The position numbers were made by a program, and so were the translations under genes. Below the pieces are notes generated by a model. The model saw only the letters and a program-made list of their open reading frames with translations. It ran no database searches and was not told the origin of the DNA. A stretch of DNA of 64,000 bases from Mycolicibacterium sp. (GTDB lineage Bacteria > Actinomycetota > Actinomycetes > Mycobacteriales > Mycobacteriaceae), in contig JACJWN010000003.1 of the NCBI GenBank assembly GCA_020637165.1, positions 124,001 through 188,000 on the forward strand, in the 5' to 3' direction. Positions 33,357 to 43,085 of the stretch are shown here, piece after piece (positions within the stretch are counted from its first letter, which is position 1; each line of letters starts with the position of its first letter).

Positions 33357-36208
<2,852 letters not shown>

Positions 36209-36209
<1 letters not shown>

Positions 36210-37099
36210 TGTCCCCGGCGCTGCCCACCGCGGTCCGCCAGTGGCGCGACGGCGGCCGCATGGTATGCACCCCGGCCGGAAGGGTGTTCGTCCGCTCCGG
36301 CCCCGGTGACGGCAGGGGCTCGACCGTGCTGATGCTGCACGGGTTTCCCTCCAGCTCCTACGATTTCCGCGGCGTCGCCGATCGGCTCGGCGGCGTGCCC
36401 TGGCTCACTCTGGACTTCCTCGGGTTCGGATTGTCCGACAAGCCCCGGCCGCACCGTTACAGCCTGATGGAGCAGGCCGATATCGTCGAGGCGGTGGTGG
36501 CCGACGCCGGCGTCGGACCGGTGGTGCTGATCGCCCACGACATGGGCACCTCGGTGGCCACCGAGCTGCTGGCCCGCGATCTGGCCGGCAAGCTGCCCTT
36601 CGACCTGCAACGCGCGGTGCTCACCAACGGCAGTGTGATCCTCGAGCGCGCCAGCCTGCGGCCCATCCAGAAGGTCCTGCGCGGGCCGCTCGGGCCGTTG
36701 GCCGCCCGGCTGACCAACCGGGTCGGCTTCCAGCGCGGGTTCGCCGAGTTGTTCGGTGACACTCACCCGTTGAGCAAGGACGAGGCGCGCGCGCAGTGGG
36801 CGTTGCTGGCCCGCGACGACGGCCATCGGATTCTGCACCTGTTGTGCTACTACCTCACAGAGCGGGTCGACTTCGCTTCCCGCTGGCACGGTGCGGTGCG
36901 CGACTGGCCCAAACCGCTGGCCTTCCTGTGGGCGATCGACGATCCGGTGGCCACTCCGGCGGTGCTGGCCGGGCTGCGCCAATTACGCCCCGGGGCCGAG
37001 ACTGTCGAGTTGCCCGGTATCGGGCACTATCCGCAGATCGAGATACCCATGGAGTTCACCGCGGTGGCCGCTCGGCTGTTGCGGCTGGGGCTTAACTGA
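36209..37099 (+). CDS. Alpha/beta hydrolase with Asp nucleophile (LipZ / epoxide hydrolase-haloalkane dehalogenase-like)
   Basis: The 296-residue protein begins in the gcvB stop codon. It has the oxyanion motif HGFPSSSYD (about 47-55), a nucleophile elbow AHDMGTS with Asp rather than Ser (about 112), and a C-terminal catalytic His in GIGHYPQIE (about 274). An Asp nucleophile is typical of epoxide hydrolases and haloalkane dehalogenases, not lipases. By position it matches Rv1834 (lipZ); the lipase name may mislead. The last eight bases overlap the convergent kinase-like gene at 37092. Confidence 0.87.
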
Positions 37100-37790
37100 C
37101 TGCGAAGCCCTCGGGCCCGAACTTCAGATGAAGTTCGATGACCGGCTCGGCCGTTTCGGACCGGTCGCCGATCGCGGTGAGCACGGTCCGGTTGATGTCC
37201 TCCGCCTGACGGGCAGATAACTTTGCCGTTGGGTTTTCAATCCCGAGGATCAATAACTTTCCCGAGCGGGCGGCGGCCTGATGCCACTTTTCCTCGTTGG
37301 CCGAGACGACATCATCCAGCAGTACCTCCGATCTCGAGTCCGACTCTGGTTCGCCGCCGCCGTCGCCGCCCGCAGCGGTCGACGCAGACCCTTGGGCATC
37401 CATGATGGCCTGCAATTTTGACAGCAGATCTGACAATTCGGTGAGTTGTTGTACACGCGGGGGTTGGTCCGGGGACAGCGAGCCGGCCAGAAAAAATAAG
37501 GCTGCCAAGGTGGTTCGGAAGTCGTGGGATACCGCCGAGGCGAAGCGCTCCTGCTCACTGAGCGCCCGAGCAGCGGTCCGCCGCGCCGCCTCCAGTTCCG
37601 AGGTCCGCAGGGCGAGTTTGTCCTGTAGCTGCTGACGGAGTTCCCAGCGATCGGAGGCCACCTGCTCTGCGATGGCCTCCGCTTCAAGGCGCGCCGCTTT
37701 CTCCCGGGCAAGCCGAGCCCGGAGGCGTGCAATCAACGCTGATTCGTCGGTTGGCTCGCTCAAGTCGTCGACTTGATTCTGATCGTGCAC
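37092..37790 (-). CDS. Truncated histidine kinase-like protein: HisKA dimerisation helix pair without ATPase core
   Basis: The 232-residue protein has an N-terminal coiled coil (about 18-80, Arg/Glu/Ala heptads) and a HisKA-like H-box with His89 in AVSHDFRTTLAAL. After an acidic/glycine-rich linker, a stretch from about 150 (EVLLDDVVSANEEKW) resembles the first third of a HATPase domain, but the N-box Asn is absent and the protein ends before the G1 and G2 ATP boxes. It cannot be an ordinary kinase; a phosphotransfer or adaptor role in the H-NOX operon is inferred, decay is the alternative. GTG start lies 31 bases inside the H-NOX gene. Confidence 0.75.
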   Translation of the reverse strand: MHDQNQVDDLSEPTDESALIARLRARLAREKAARLEAEAIAEQVASDRWELRQQLQDKLALRTSELEAARRTAARALSEQERFASAVSHDFRTTLAALFFLAGSLSPDQPPRVQQLTELSDLLSKLQAIMDAQGSASTAAGGDGGGEPESDSRSEVLLDDVVSANEEKWHQAAARSGKLLILGIENPTAKLSARQAEDINRTVLTAIGDRSETAEPVIELHLKFGPEGFAVS

Positions 37791-38296
37791 CGGGAGTCAC
37801 CACGGTTCTTGCAGCTCGGTTGGTCCACGACCACCGGCTCACCGTAATGGTCGGCTACCCCCAACACCAATCCCTCGGCGAGGGTGCACATGTTCCTCAC
37901 CGACAGGTAGTCCAACTCCAGATGGTCACCGGCGTCCCGCAGGACGAACCTCGGCACGGAAGCACCGGGGTAGAGCTTCAGCACCTCGGGGTGGATTATG
38001 TCGTTGACGGTAGGTAGGAATTCGCGCATCGACGGCGGTTCCTTGTGATGGCCCCGGTAGCGGGTCAGCAAGGATACGAAGGTGATCCTTCCGAGTGTCC
38101 GCAGAACGTCCTCGAACGGGGCGTTCAGACGTTCTGCCGCCGCCTCGGCCAGGGCGACGAGTTGTTCGTCGGGGTAATTTCCGAGTGCGGTGTAGGCCCC
38201 GTCCACATTGGCGGCGTCCAGCAGGTCATCCCACACATCCTCACCCCACTCGCGCGATACGGCTTCTTCGACGGCGTTGAACAAAACTCCCTTCAT
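37760..38296 (-). CDS. H-NOX (haem nitric oxide/oxygen binding) sensor protein
   Basis: The 178-residue stand-alone H-NOX protein binds haem and senses NO or O2. Diagnostic residues are at the canonical numbers: proximal His102 (NDIIHPEV), Pro115 (SVPRF) and the haem-propionate motif Tyr130-x-Ser132-x-Arg134 (YLSVR). Residue 140 is Ala, so there is no distal Tyr as in O2-binding members; NO selectivity is inferred. A C-terminal CKNRGDSRC pair of cysteines could bind zinc. Its ATG overlaps the kinase gene stop by four bases (ATGA), so it is the partner of that kinase. I know of no H-NOX in M. tuberculosis. Confidence 0.93.
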   Translation of the reverse strand: MKGVLFNAVEEAVSREWGEDVWDDLLDAANVDGAYTALGNYPDEQLVALAEAAAERLNAPFEDVLRTLGRITFVSLLTRYRGHHKEPPSMREFLPTVNDIIHPEVLKLYPGASVPRFVLRDAGDHLELDYLSVRNMCTLAEGLVLGVADHYGEPVVVDQPSCKNRGDSRCTIRIKSTT

Positions 38297-41172
38297 CGGG
38301 TGCCTTCCTGGTTCGCGCAGGGAAAGATTTTCGTGTGCAGCAGCCTCAGGGTGGTTTCTACGAGATCATCCAGTGGCGCTTCGGACAGACTCGCGACCGG
38401 GTCCGTCGCCTCCTCGACAGCTCTGAGCCGCTCTGCCAGCGCGACCGCTCCCAGCATCGCACTGGGTGAGCGCAAAACGTGTGCGCTGCGCCGCACCGCC
38501 TCGACGTCGGCGGCCTCTGCCACCCGATGCAGATCGGCCAGCCGTCGCGGAATTTCGTTGACGAATGTCAGCGCGACCTTCTGTAGAGGACCTGGACCGA
38601 GCTCCTCCAGAAGCCGATCGATTCGTGCGTCGTCGAGTATGGGTGCGACGGGCGTTTCCGGAGCGGAGCGGTTGGCTCCGGGCTCAGGACCGGAACCGGC
38701 GTCGAGACCGCAACCATGCCCCTCGACCCGGCCCAGGGTGCGGGTCAGTTGTTCGGAAAGTGCGGTGAGCAGCAGCGGCTTGGTGAGAAAACCGTCCATC
38801 CCGGCTCTCTTGCACGCTTCGCGGTTCGCCGCCGTCGCTGAGGCCGTGAGTGCGATGACCGGTGTGTGAACGCCGGTGCTGCGCTCGCCGGCCCGGATGT
38901 TGCGGGTCGCCGCATAGCCATCCATCACTGGCATGTTGCAGTCCATCAACACCGCCGCGAATCGTCGCGCCTCGAGCTGCTCCAAGGCTTCCGCGCCATT
39001 GGACGTGATCACGCAGCCGTATCCGAGCTTCTCAAGCTGCGCCTCGATGAGGAGTTGGTTGGTGGGATTGTCGTCTGCCACGAGGATGGTCAGCCCCGAC
39101 CCGGTCTCGTCGGCGACGTTGCGGGCGGGATTCGGCGACGGGTCCTGCGGTGCCGCCCCCGGCAGGGGGATCGTAAAGTGGAACGTCGATCCGTGACCTT
39201 CCAGGCTGGCGATGGCAAGCCCATCACCGCCGAGAGTTTTGACGATCCGGTCCGAAATCGCCAGTCCCAGGCCGCTGCCCCGGGTGGCGTCGGTGGCCGA
39301 CACCTGTGCGAACGGCTCTAGGATCTTTTCAACCTGATCGGCGGGAATTCCCGGGCCGGTATCGGTCACGGCGAACCGGACCAGATCTGCGGCCACGTCG
39401 GTGGTCGCCGGCGCGATCTCGACGTCGATGCGACCCTCGCGGGTGAACTTCACGGCGTTGGAGACGAGGTTCACCATCACCTGCTGCAACTTGTCGGGAT
39501 CGCCGCTGCGCCAGTCCGAGAGGCTCGGATCGACTGAACCGTTGAGTTCCAGACCCTTTTCCGCGGCCGTCACCCTCGAGATCTGAATCACCCCGTCGAG
39601 AATCCTGCGGAGCGCGAACGGCCGGGAGGCTACCTTGGCCTGACCCGCCTCCAGTCTCGACAGGTCCTGGAGATCTTCGATCAGACGGGTCAGACGTTCG
39701 GCTTCGGTGCGGATCAGCCTGGACCACTCCGCGGTCAGACTGCGGCCCTCGGAGGACAGCTGGTTATCCAGAAGTTCGGAGAACCCGAGTATGGCGTTGA
39801 GCGGAGCGCGGATCTCGTGGCTGACCGTCACCACGTAGTCGGCCATCGCTTGACTCATGACGTCGGCGTGGTCGCGCGCTTCCTGGAGCTCCTTCTCCAA
39901 CGCGACCTGATCGTCGATGACACGCAACGCGACGATTAACCCATTGGGGTTGCCCTCGGCGTCGATAAAGGGCTTTCCGTGGCCCTCGACCCAGTGATAT
40001 CCGCCGTCGGCCGTTAGGACCCGGAACCGCGCGACGGCGGCACCTGCTTCCCCGATCTCGGCTATTCCCGCAGCTACGACCTCGAGATCGTCGGGGTAGG
40101 TGGTGCGGGTCATGTCGTTTCCGAGCCACCATGAGATCGGCCATCCGAAGGCATCTTCGATCGACGGCGAGACCCAGACGAATTTGCCGTCCCGCAGGTG
40201 CACGACGACATCGACGGTGTTTTCGGTCAGGAGACTGACCAGATTCATAGTGGAGTCAATCACCGTCTCCTGCGTCGATTCCAACGCCTCGGCGCGTGTT
40301 CGGCTCTGTGTCAGCGCATCGGCCATCCGTAGTTGGAAACGGTGGCCGACAGTGAGGAGGACGAATCCGGCCGCTATACCGACCAGGATCAGCGACAGTC
40401 CCCAGGCCGCGTCTCCACGGGCACCCAAGGCCCTGATCACGAGCCGCGAAGCCGCGACACCGACGGGAAGGACGGCGAAGGTGCCGACTACCCAGAGCAG
40501 AATCTCATGGTCGCGCCGAGCGGCCAGCCAGGATGCCGGAGGATCATCCGGGCGAGCAAGTGCGGCCGCGACGATGAGCAGCGTCATGGCCCCGGAAGTC
40601 AGGGTGCTCATGCCCGTCGAGGCGGAAATGCTCGCCACGCTGGCGAGGTTGAAGAGATTGCCCATGATCGCGGCCGACGGGATCACCGCCGCAAGGGCCA
40701 GGATCGGCAGCCGGACCGGTGCGGCCCACTGGCGCTGAAATCTCAGAAGTACGAGCGCTCCCGCGAGCAGCGCGACCGACGACGCGGTCTGAGGGCTGGG
40801 TCGACCGGGAAAATCGGGCTGAACAACGGCCACCGCTTCGCGGAAAAAGACCTGATCCAAGCCGAATGATTTATCGGCCAGGTATTCGGCGATGAACACC
40901 AGCGCCAAGGCGCCGGTCGTCGCGGCCAGGATACGACCGGCGTTGACGCGCGCCGGGCGCGTAACCCCGGACTGCAGCAGGATCGCGATTCCCAATCCGG
41001 TCACCATGACCGCACTCCATGGCGTCATCGGGGGACCGCCCGTGACGAGCCTGGTCAGCGACAGGACCCCCGTCGCCCAGCCGAGCCAGTCAACCGCCGT
41101 CAAGATGAGCGCCACGACGACGGCCGCCCGACAACTGCGAACCATGGTCACTTTGGAACGGTTCATCCGCAC
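38293..41172 (-). CDS. Hybrid histidine kinase (multi-TM, PAS, HisKA, HATPase, receiver, HPt)
   Basis: The 959-residue protein has about eight N-terminal membrane helices (20-285), a PAS domain (about 315-430), HisKA with His452 (VSHEIRAPLNA), a HATPase with NLVSNAVKF, DTGPGIP and GSGLGLAI, a receiver domain with Asp744 (LMDCNMPVMDG) and Lys in LTKPL, and an HPt domain with His898 (SAHVLRSPSAMLG). This is a complete internal phosphorelay needing only a final response regulator, and none is encoded nearby. First gene of an operon with H-NOX; in other bacteria H-NOX inhibits such kinases. Start GTG 41172 or ATG 41166. Codon third positions look less G/C-rich than in neighbours. Confidence 0.93.
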   Translation of the reverse strand: MRMNRSKVTMVRSCRAAVVVALILTAVDWLGWATGVLSLTRLVTGGPPMTPWSAVMVTGLGIAILLQSGVTRPARVNAGRILAATTGALALVFIAEYLADKSFGLDQVFFREAVAVVQPDFPGRPSPQTASSVALLAGALVLLRFQRQWAAPVRLPILALAAVIPSAAIMGNLFNLASVASISASTGMSTLTSGAMTLLIVAAALARPDDPPASWLAARRDHEILLWVVGTFAVLPVGVAASRLVIRALGARGDAAWGLSLILVGIAAGFVLLTVGHRFQLRMADALTQSRTRAEALESTQETVIDSTMNLVSLLTENTVDVVVHLRDGKFVWVSPSIEDAFGWPISWWLGNDMTRTTYPDDLEVVAAGIAEIGEAGAAVARFRVLTADGGYHWVEGHGKPFIDAEGNPNGLIVALRVIDDQVALEKELQEARDHADVMSQAMADYVVTVSHEIRAPLNAILGFSELLDNQLSSEGRSLTAEWSRLIRTEAERLTRLIEDLQDLSRLEAGQAKVASRPFALRRILDGVIQISRVTAAEKGLELNGSVDPSLSDWRSGDPDKLQQVMVNLVSNAVKFTREGRIDVEIAPATTDVAADLVRFAVTDTGPGIPADQVEKILEPFAQVSATDATRGSGLGLAISDRIVKTLGGDGLAIASLEGHGSTFHFTIPLPGAAPQDPSPNPARNVADETGSGLTILVADDNPTNQLLIEAQLEKLGYGCVITSNGAEALEQLEARRFAAVLMDCNMPVMDGYAATRNIRAGERSTGVHTPVIALTASATAANREACKRAGMDGFLTKPLLLTALSEQLTRTLGRVEGHGCGLDAGSGPEPGANRSAPETPVAPILDDARIDRLLEELGPGPLQKVALTFVNEIPRRLADLHRVAEAADVEAVRRSAHVLRSPSAMLGAVALAERLRAVEEATDPVASLSEAPLDDLVETTLRLLHTKIFPCANQEGTR

Positions 41173-41282: not shown

Positions 41283-43085
41283 CTAGCCCAGCAGCCGACC
41301 GACCGCGGAGATCAACTCGGGGGAGTCTGCGGCGGGCAGGTTCAGATATCCGCCGCCGGTGATCGCTGCCACCGATTCCCAGGTCTGCCGATCCGGGTCG
41401 TCGCCGATGTCGATGACGTTGATCGCGACCGGCCGCTCCGGATCGAGCGCGGAGCGGACATAGTCCTCCAGGCCCGGGCCGTCGAGGGTGCGGTCGGTGT
41501 GCGGCCCCGAAGTGACGACCAGAACCGAATTGGGTTGTCCGGGAAGGTAACCGGCGACCGCGTCGCCGTAGACCAGGCGCAGGGTGGTGAACGACACCGC
41601 CCCGCTTCCGGTGGGTGCCAGGCCGTCGAGCACACCGGCCAGCACCGCCGAACGCGGCTGCCCGCCGAGGTCCTCGCCGAGCGGTCCGGCCGGGACGGGC
41701 TCGGAGCCCTCGGTGCCGTCAAAGGTCCACAACCCGACTACCGCTCCGGGCGGCAGTGCGGCGATGCGGCCCTCCAGGGGCCCCGTCACGCCGGTGAGGT
41801 TCTGGTCGAGCATGACCGTCGTCACCGCGCCTGCCGCGGGGGCGACCGCCCCGGCCAGTGCGCTACGCAGCGCGTCGTCACCGACCGCCAACGAGTCACC
41901 CAGTTCCGGGAAGCCGACCACGTCGTTACCCTCCATGACCGCGCCCGGGGCGCGGAAACCCGCGTCGGTGAGCTTGGCGACTTGGTCGGGCTTGCGCAGG
42001 AAACGGGCGAACTGGCTGGCCGCGTCGACCTGCTCTTCGGTCAACCACGGCCCGGAGAGAAGGACGGTGGGGTAGTCGGCCTGGGCGACCGGCCCGGAGG
42101 GAAGCCAGGACGCGACGGGGCTGGCGTCATCGGGCATCGTGGTGGACCGGGCGAACACCTGCTGCTCGGTCATCACCACGCCATGTACCGGTGCCACGGC
42201 GGGGTCGCCGGGGGCGATCAGGGCGTTCCACGCCGTCCCGGCGGTGTTGTCGGCCAGTTGCGGCTGGCCGGACAGCAGGGTGCTGACCGCGCCCAGTCCT
42301 TCGGTCGGCGACCCGTCCGGGCCGGATGCGGTGGCTACGGCCTCTGCGGCCAGGTAGGTGGCGTCGGCGTCGCCCACCGTCGGAAGGGCCAGTCGCAGCG
42401 AGCCCCAGCCCGGCAGATCGCGGCCGTCCAGGGCGCTCGGGTCGGTCTGCAAGCCCGGCAGCGCCGCCCAGTCGTCCTGGCCCAGCGCATTCTTGACCTG
42501 CGGCGCGACGGCCAGCACCACCGGGGTGGTCACCAGGGAGCGGGCGTCGATCACCGCCTGCTTGCCGTTGGCGACCTGCAGCCGGGCCGGCTGAACCGAA
42601 CTGGCCGGAATCCACAGCGCCGGAATCGCACCCAGGTCGCCCGGCCAGGATCCGGTAAGTCCGTTGTACACCGCGTCCGAACCGGCTTCCCGCACCGCGA
42701 CCCTGACGCACACATCGCCCACCGGCGTGGTCTGGGAGTTGAACTCCTCGGCGAAGGACGCGATGTTCTCGACGATCGAGGGGTCCGCGACCACGGCGAC
42801 CTCCGCGGTGCCCTCCAGGCATTGCTGGGCGGCGTCGGCGGACCTTTTCGAGAGCACGCCGCCGAAGAACCGCCACAGGAAAACCCCGGCGACCAGGACC
42901 ACGACCGTGATCAGCGCCGCGATCACCCCGACGCTGACGCCGCGGCGGCCGCCGTCGGTGCGGCGGCGCCGACCCTGCCAGCCGCCGTCGGCCCGCGGGA
43001 TCCGGCCGGAGGGTTCGTCACTGCCGCCGTGGTCGGCGGGCCCGGACGTGGAGTCCCCGGAGCCGGGGAGGCTGTGCCTGCCCAT
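41283..43085 (-). CDS. Membrane-anchored substrate-binding-like / VWA-like protein (Rv1836c type)
   Basis: The 600-residue protein has a charged cytoplasmic N-terminus (about 1-48), one transmembrane helix (about 50-72) and a large external part. Residues about 90-390 resemble a periplasmic solute-binding fold (AEVAVVADPSIVENI, LAVAPQVKNALG), and about 400-600 resemble a von Willebrand factor A-like domain (VVTTVMLDQNLTG, VLVVTSGPHTD), though a full MIDAS motif is not evident. It ends three bases from glcB's end region and is transcribed in the same direction. M. tuberculosis Rv1836c is the counterpart; function unknown. Confidence 0.82.
   Translation of the reverse strand: MGRHSLPGSGDSTSGPADHGGSDEPSGRIPRADGGWQGRRRRTDGGRRGVSVGVIAALITVVVLVAGVFLWRFFGGVLSKRSADAAQQCLEGTAEVAVVADPSIVENIASFAEEFNSQTTPVGDVCVRVAVREAGSDAVYNGLTGSWPGDLGAIPALWIPASSVQPARLQVANGKQAVIDARSLVTTPVVLAVAPQVKNALGQDDWAALPGLQTDPSALDGRDLPGWGSLRLALPTVGDADATYLAAEAVATASGPDGSPTEGLGAVSTLLSGQPQLADNTAGTAWNALIAPGDPAVAPVHGVVMTEQQVFARSTTMPDDASPVASWLPSGPVAQADYPTVLLSGPWLTEEQVDAASQFARFLRKPDQVAKLTDAGFRAPGAVMEGNDVVGFPELGDSLAVGDDALRSALAGAVAPAAGAVTTVMLDQNLTGVTGPLEGRIAALPPGAVVGLWTFDGTEGSEPVPAGPLGEDLGGQPRSAVLAGVLDGLAPTGSGAVSFTTLRLVYGDAVAGYLPGQPNSVLVVTSGPHTDRTLDGPGLEDYVRSALDPERPVAINVIDIGDDPDRQTWESVAAITGGGYLNLPAADSPELISAVGRLLG

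Follow-up and report, generated by a model that had tools for sequence, protein, structure and literature searches.

A three-gene H-NOX operon in a mycobacterial genome

On which protein does a stand-alone H-NOX sensor act in a mycobacterium, and with what output? The question is raised by a 64,000-nucleotide stretch of a Mycolicibacterium sp. genome (assembly GCA_020637165.1, contig JACJWN010000003.1, positions 124,001 to 188,000), which we call the window. An earlier reading of its letters, the original prediction, had placed three overlapping minus-strand genes at 37092..41172, for a hybrid kinase with receiver and HPt domains, an H-NOX protein that would control this kinase, and a truncated HisKA protein. 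The operon is real and well bounded, and the prediction was right about it and about its insertion between two conserved genes; its views on the partner of H-NOX and on the missing response regulator had to be revised. Open reading frame (ORF) calls gave a tight operon on the minus strand, encoding a membrane hybrid histidine kinase of 959 residues (38293..41172), a stand-alone H-NOX protein of 178 residues (37760..38296) and T3, a DHp protein of 232 residues without a complete ATP-binding domain (37092..37790). The kinase and H-NOX genes overlap by 4 bp and the H-NOX and T3 genes by 31 bp, and the order of the three is kept in all seven mycobacterial genomes that carry the operon. Three overlapping frames that recur in seven genomes rule out a chance ORF or a misassembly.

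The third gene encodes a conserved kinase-dead DHp protein

T3 is present in each of the seven operon genomes and is a conserved kinase-dead derivative of the complete kinases located behind H-NOX in Acidimicrobiia. Its Pfam result was a weak HisKA match alone (5e-4, 20.5 bits, under the Pfam cut-off of 26.9). The DHp hairpin (37371..37574, minus strand) carries the phospho-accepting histidine H89 and, four positions on, T93; both are found in 7/7 copies, and the acid one position after the histidine is kept in only five (D, G, D, D, E, E and T across the seven). The half CA domain that follows (37095..37319, minus strand) stops just ahead of the G1 box, at the same C-terminal end point in all seven genomes. 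No HATPase domain was detected in any of the seven T3 proteins at E ≤ 0.1, whereas all 19 of the full-length kinases aligned from the corresponding position in Acidimicrobiia have one. These 19 were picked from 36 named loci because a small kinase occupied the third position; L033 and L048 were omitted although tblastn shows a small kinase there too, and the others have different outputs or are cut. The candidate N-box column of T3 held no asparagine in either of two alignments. The statement that this asparagine had turned into arginine in all seven T3 proteins was dropped: R210 is invariant, but the alignments put the N-box at 205 or 209. A fold search with T3 returned general kinase folds.

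T3 shares with HnoK-type kinases the place behind H-NOX and the N-terminal helix described below, and it lacks their ATP-binding N, G1 and G2 boxes. With a conserved histidine and no working ATP-binding motifs, its DHp hairpin is of the ChpT/Spo0B/PhyT type. The original prediction called it a "truncated HisKA protein", but the protein is not debris. A recent pseudogene is ruled out by the common end point, the invariant histidine and 48-65% identity across the seven genomes.

Among HisKA proteins, kinase activity alone depends on the acid and phosphatase activity alone on the threonine or asparagine, and the DHp domain by itself is enough for phosphatase activity in EnvZ and NtrB (PMC3510030; this and all other papers are cited here from excerpts). 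Degenerate kinases turned phosphotransferases are known in ChpT, Spo0B and PhyT (PMC3433190, PMC5898713). Phosphotransferase and phosphatase activity are both candidate functions of T3, and we put the phosphatase slightly ahead because the hybrid kinase has an HPt domain of its own and T93 is invariant. The kinase's own HPt, which makes a second phosphotransferase needless, weighs against part of our proposal in that it favours either a phosphatase or an adaptor. As a pure adaptor, T3 would take no phosphate and would bring H-NOX into contact with the hybrid kinase, perhaps through pairing of the two DHp hairpins. Its want of ATP-binding motifs, the full relay within the hybrid kinase and the joint absence of H-NOX and T3 from one genome (G032, see below) all agree with such a role. 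A phospho-histidine and an H+4 threonine kept in 7/7 copies, with the kinase acid lost in two, would be odd for a mere spacer, and we regard the adaptor as doubtful, though not far-fetched.

An N-terminal helix is common to H-NOX partner proteins

The most conserved part of T3 is its N-terminal helix (residues 16-72; 37575..37745, minus strand), in which 33 of 57 columns are invariant. We made a profile of the seven T3 helices only and searched with it 61 other H-NOX loci, translated in six frames. The best match lay at most 200 bases behind H-NOX, at the start of the next gene, in 56 of them, and scored at least 12 bits in 54 of those; the maximum was 4.8 bits over the 3415 frames of 52 control loci that had been retrieved for other genes (five of them, L119-L123, from genomes not checked for H-NOX). 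The profile failed in five loci, with L030 cut by a contig end and nothing found in L125, L127, L129 and L134. Two further H-NOX loci, L130 and L133, gave no tblastn match and are omitted from the survey. The genes that carry the helix behind H-NOX vary and encode small kinases, GAF-GGDEF-EAL proteins, a GAF-HisKA_3 kinase and a GAF-PAS-SpoIIE protein.

A second helix profile, of 14 rows, was searched in 396 genomes of the genus. At E ≤ 1e-3 it matched 22 of 22 genomes with H-NOX and none of the 374 others, with E-values of 2e-15 or better and one match per H-NOX genome, directly behind H-NOX. A weak match at 0.006 occurred in G168, a genome without H-NOX. The genome-wide searches scored part of the first-look candidates, up to 16 per genome for the helix and 7 for the regulator discussed below. 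As a separate observation, a second helix match (8.2e-15) lies at G211:C303:2350-2493, in a genome whose single H-NOX match is on another contig.

Judged by this helix, T3 is most likely the direct partner of H-NOX, and the helix may be the docking element for H-NOX. The operon is thus probably not a plain case of H-NOX controlling a hybrid kinase, as had been predicted. The H-NOX side of a partner contact has been mapped by hydrogen-deuterium exchange (HDX) to helices A-C and F (PMC7108781), and a coiled-coil "S-helix" family has been described that includes the helix of soluble guanylate cyclase (sGC) (PMC2828450). No description of a helix common to H-NOX partners was found in the literature searched, which covered a limited part of the field.

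Several points weigh against docking through this helix. The argument for it is an association between neighbouring genes. Ten rows of the 14-row profile came from ten of the 22 H-NOX genomes, and the remaining 12 genomes are independent. On plasmids, for which we took 8 of 18 H-NOX records (alpha-, beta- and gammaproteobacteria and one bacteroidote), the best match of the 14-row profile fell at the beginning of the following gene in 8/8 and was strong in two (58 and 71 bits), but the six others were weak (8-16 bits; control maximum 4.1). The T3-only profile found the next gene in four of the eight plasmid loci, in two of them with less than 5 bits.

H-NOX might also act directly on the hybrid kinase, as for HnoK and HqsK, and T3 would then be the fading remnant of a second kinase. 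The sensor does control the autophosphorylation of a neighbouring kinase in the known H-NOX/kinase pairs (PMC6759604, PMC12329717), and T3 is the least conserved protein of the operon, with the above 48-65% identity between genomes compared with 50-74% for the hybrid kinase and 71-85% for H-NOX. We nevertheless think direct action quite improbable, given an end point of T3 that is the same in seven genomes, a helix that is its most conserved part, and a helix profile whose best match, in 56 of 61 loci, is the gene that follows H-NOX.

The H-NOX protein keeps both haem and zinc-site residues

If H-NOX acts through T3, what does it sense? The H-NOX frame matched HNOB (PF07700) at 2.3e-35 over residues 2-158 and gave the only HNOB match in the assembly. 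It has H102, P115 and Y130-x-S132-x-R134 at the canonical numbers that had been predicted; in an alignment of 67 H-NOX rows, H102, P115, S132 and R134 occur in all and Y130 in 66. Binding of haem and of nitric oxide (NO) is predicted. The nearest solved structures are those of Shewanella oneidensis H-NOX (best 1.1e-25). C137, C162, C170 and Q159, kept in 7/7 operon copies, align with the zinc ligands of the Shewanella protein (2kii/4u99; ligand positions from PMC7108781) and place the operon H-NOX in the subgroup with a zinc site of three Cys and His or Gln. The zinc-site cysteines are mostly absent from the Acidimicrobiia-type H-NOX rows (C137 in 2/26). Five residues past R134, at what we take to be the O2-selecting position, all seven operon H-NOX proteins have Leu instead of Tyr.

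The signal may be NO or cysteine oxidation, and both are candidates. The kept haem ligand and YxSxR motif agree with NO, the signal of the original prediction, but the site of three Cys and Gln found in redox-responsive H-NOX is kept as well. Oxidation of these cysteines rather than NO could be the signal: all four residues are present in 7/7 copies, and Caulobacter H-NOX, which blocks its kinase only with oxidised cysteines and not when NO-bound (PMC12329717), stands in published group 3 together with a "Mycobacterium sp." sequence of unassigned mycobacterial lineage (PMC7108781). Retention of the haem ligand and YxSxR, the fact that the nearest structure is that of an NO sensor, and the Leu past R134 speak against it. 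We treat oxidation in place of NO as possible, but only tentatively so.

The hybrid kinase contains a full relay

The hybrid kinase begins with a multi-transmembrane part of seven hydrophobic stretches (residues 18 to 276; 40345..41121), which is followed by a PAS domain (residues 332-413; 39934..40179; PAS_3, 5.2e-9), a HisKA domain with the phospho-acceptor H452 (39643..39828; 2.1e-14), a HATPase_c domain with its catalytic motifs kept (39160..39504; 1.1e-26), a receiver with D744 (38752..39087; Response_reg, 1.8e-23) and an HPt domain with H898 (38392..38568; Hpt, 2.4e-7), all on the minus strand. The residues H452, N572, D604, G634, D744, K798 and H898 are kept in 7/7 mycobacterial copies. 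With HisKA, HATPase, REC and HPt all present together with their phospho-residues, the protein is an HPt-bearing hybrid kinase, in agreement with the prediction. Its HPt is the sole Hpt match in the 3.85-Mb assembly (94.3% complete). The HPt histidine is kept in 21/21 Acidimicrobiia-type relatives of the kinase, and 12 of these 21, some of them partial, showed no hydrophobic N-terminal stretches.

A regulator and a polysaccharide cluster adjoin the operon in relatives

Where might the phosphate go? In the window no response regulator gene was matched except the kinase's own receiver. The original prediction had noted that none is adjacent, which is correct here, and had concluded that the HPt must feed an orphan regulator; the absence is, however, a peculiarity of the window branch. 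An OmpR-family regulator lies behind T3, in convergent orientation, in five of the seven operon genomes. It is followed in all five by genes for two STAS proteins, two glycosyltransferases, a flippase-like protein, a polysaccharide pyruvyl transferase and a large membrane protein. Orthologs of the regulator (E ≤ 1e-85, with 72-79% identity to the L078 query) occur in six of the 396 genomes, namely those five and G032, which amounts to 5/7 operon genomes versus 1/389 others (Fisher 1.6e-9). The hybrid kinase of G032 (59% identity) keeps HisKA-HATPase-REC-HPt, has a different N-terminus and is encoded directly beside the regulator. Neither H-NOX nor T3 was found in G032, a draft of about 400 contigs. 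G032 shows the system naturally lacking its sensor arm: H-NOX and T3 are both absent, and the kinase and regulator are kept.

Other observations weigh against a fixed connection of the operon to this output. G032 has two STAS genes, and no polysaccharide gene was matched in the remaining 1.6 kb of its contig. In G355, whose operon is the closest relative of that in the window, no regulator ortholog was found; in the regulator's place the C-terminal part of a GGDEF diguanylate cyclase (L075:13169-13486; 9.5e-16) lies convergent behind T3, and the contig ends inside the gene. The window genome, at its 94.3% completeness, yielded no regulator ortholog, nor a match to the pyruvyl transferase, which was the only cluster gene sought, in a search without a positive control.

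The best regulator matches in the window genome (48-50% identity, once on C4 and twice on C31) were rejected as the missing regulator because the six orthologs form a clade (100/99) that excludes the 13 OmpR-type regulators of this genome compared. Three close OmpR-type regulators of the window genome (C4:27612, C31:119457 and C31:147178) form one clade (100/98) and are apparently recent duplicates; the one on C4 has an unclassified 409-residue frame behind it. A separate region of this genome (L147, C27:168000-184000) contains three kinase-like frames, each with a receiver match, and a fourth receiver within 11 kb.

The operon was inserted between two conserved genes

One edge of the operon is formed by a lipZ-like alpha/beta hydrolase gene (36179..37099, plus strand), which overlaps the T3 gene tail to tail by 8 bp, and the other by a gene for an Rv1836c-like protein (41283..43085, minus strand), both called by Pfam and comparison with relatives. 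The Rv1836c-like gene is present in 24 of 24 same-genus relatives searched, the window genome not counted. In six relatives (L095, L097, L098, L108, L115 and L118) the two genes adjoin tail to tail, with their stop codons -9 to +6 bp apart, as against 4183 bp in the window. The operon has a GC content of 64.0% and a GC content at third codon positions (GC3) of 76.2%, compared with 69.4% and 86.8% for its neighbours (other called genes of more than 200 residues in the surrounding 25 kb). Since the edge genes abut in six relatives and the GC3 of the operon is below that of its neighbours, we conclude that the operon was inserted between them in the window genome; the original prediction had anticipated both the insertion and the lower G/C content. 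The GC3 deficit is smaller or absent in the six other operon-bearing genomes. Upstream of the operon in L075, L076 and L077 lie a conserved block and a WhiB-family gene, which we take to resemble WhiB3; it has a Pfam match in L076, and its identity is 91% in L075 and 97% in L077.

The operon of the window genome might therefore be a moved copy without a working output. The lowered GC3, the insertion site that is empty in six relatives and the want of a regulator ortholog or pyruvyl transferase match in the assembly would fit. Against this, the three frames are open and their key residues kept, and the assembly is only 94% complete. Another regulator could also substitute: seven receiver loci above the Pfam cut-off have no kinase-like frame nearby, according to a crude motif scan that can miss kinases. 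A moved copy without output seems unlikely to us.

Mycobacteria have H-NOX proteins of two lineages

H-NOX was found in 22 of 396 genomes of the genus, 10 of 396 of the phylum and 6 of 348 of the order, the window genome counted. H-NOX is not unique to the strain. The 22 genomes fall into two lineages, seven with the three-gene operon and 15 (loci L060-L068, L070-L074 and L080) without T3, whose H-NOX proteins are 39-46% identical to that of the window. In a tree of 67 of 68 H-NOX rows (one short row was dropped), both lineages are clades with support of 100/100. The seven operon proteins group with Acidimicrobiia-type Actinomycetota (98/91) and the 15 others with ten proteobacterial rows, mostly sphingomonads and relatives (99/89), which suggests that mycobacteria gained H-NOX twice, separately. 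Partners in the second lineage carry the T3-type N-terminal helix and differ in output by Pfam, with a GAF-HisKA_3 kinase in L060, GAF-GGDEF-EAL proteins in L063 and L064, and a GAF-PAS-SpoIIE protein in L074. The presence of H-NOX in mycobacteria is not new by itself, since a "Mycobacterium sp." H-NOX is part of a published alignment (PMC7108781) and Mycobacteriaceae are named among H-NOX holders (PMC8738867). The latter, a 2022 review that knew of the Mycobacteriaceae database hits, states that, to its authors' knowledge, a putative NO-sensing H-NOX from Gram-positive species had not been reported.

Comparison with known systems

The operon resembles the H-NOX/HnoK-HnoB systems of S. oneidensis and Vibrio cholerae and the Caulobacter H-NOX/HnoK pair in its stand-alone H-NOX with the same ligands, the adjacency of the partner gene and the zinc site of three Cys plus Gln/His. 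The partner kinases described there are complete, and H-NOX inhibits their autophosphorylation (PMC6759604, PMC12329717); in the window operon H-NOX is followed by a gene whose product has only half an ATP-binding domain, and the membrane hybrid kinase is a separate protein. As in the HqsK-LuxU and HahK-SypF/LuxU-SypG systems of Vibrio, H-NOX would feed a His-Asp-His-Asp relay with a regulator as its last member; in V. fischeri that regulator controls a polysaccharide cluster (PMC12369376). In the Vibrio relays, however, H-NOX is paired with the hybrid kinase itself, and the relay uses the HPt of a different protein; the excerpts of these sources do not mention a kinase-dead DHp protein. ChpT, Spo0B and PhyT share with T3 a phospho-histidine, a DHp hairpin and the want of a working ATPase domain (PMC3433190, PMC5898713), and no H-NOX partner is mentioned for them in the same excerpts. 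T3 stops in the middle of the CA fold, whereas ChpT has a full atypical CA fold. Closest are the Acidimicrobiia operons (for example L042, L045 and L051), which have the same gene order, a related HPt-bearing hybrid kinase and the helix on the third gene. Their third gene, in contrast, encodes a complete kinase (HATPase in the 19/19 aligned), and they differ in the 12 hybrid kinases without hydrophobic stretches and in H-NOX proteins mostly without zinc cysteines. No precedent for an H-NOX arm built on a kinase-dead partner was found in the literature searched.

A proposed relay with a T3 input arm

We give an even chance to the proposal, made from sequence comparison, that the operon encodes a horizontally spread phosphorelay with a gas or redox input arm in which H-NOX acts via T3. 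Phosphate would pass from ATP to H452, D744 and H898 and on to a regulator; the residues are seen, and the flow along them is what we would expect. The hybrid kinase would thus act through its receiver and HPt on the OmpR-family regulator, which in five relatives stands beside the polysaccharide cluster. H-NOX would dock on the N-terminal helix of T3. T3, presumably unable to phosphorylate itself, would serve as a phosphatase or phosphotransferase of the DHp type for one of the relay's receivers, either the kinase's own or that of the regulator, and the state of H-NOX would switch T3. NO or an oxidant would then alter the phosphate load of the regulator via a dedicated T3 arm and not via inhibition of kinase autophosphorylation. 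The output in the window genome would be another regulator, or would be lost, because the operon sits elsewhere and no regulator ortholog was found. Somewhat short of even we place the broader idea that H-NOX governs a kinase-dead DHp arm of a separate relay by means of a helix common to partners of differing output, which include a kinase, GGDEF-EAL, a HisKA_3 kinase and an SpoIIE phosphatase.

The operon has a traceable history, with a complete kinase in Acidimicrobiia and half a kinase in mycobacteria. Relatives supply a candidate regulator and a candidate output, and one genome, G032, naturally lacks the sensor arm. The common N-terminal helix predicts a contact site, which makes the communication between H-NOX and its partners testable. 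DosS and DosT are known sensors in mycobacteria; the operon may offer some of these bacteria a further input for NO or oxidants. If the proposed relay is true, it would tie NO or an oxidant to a polysaccharide in mycobacteria.

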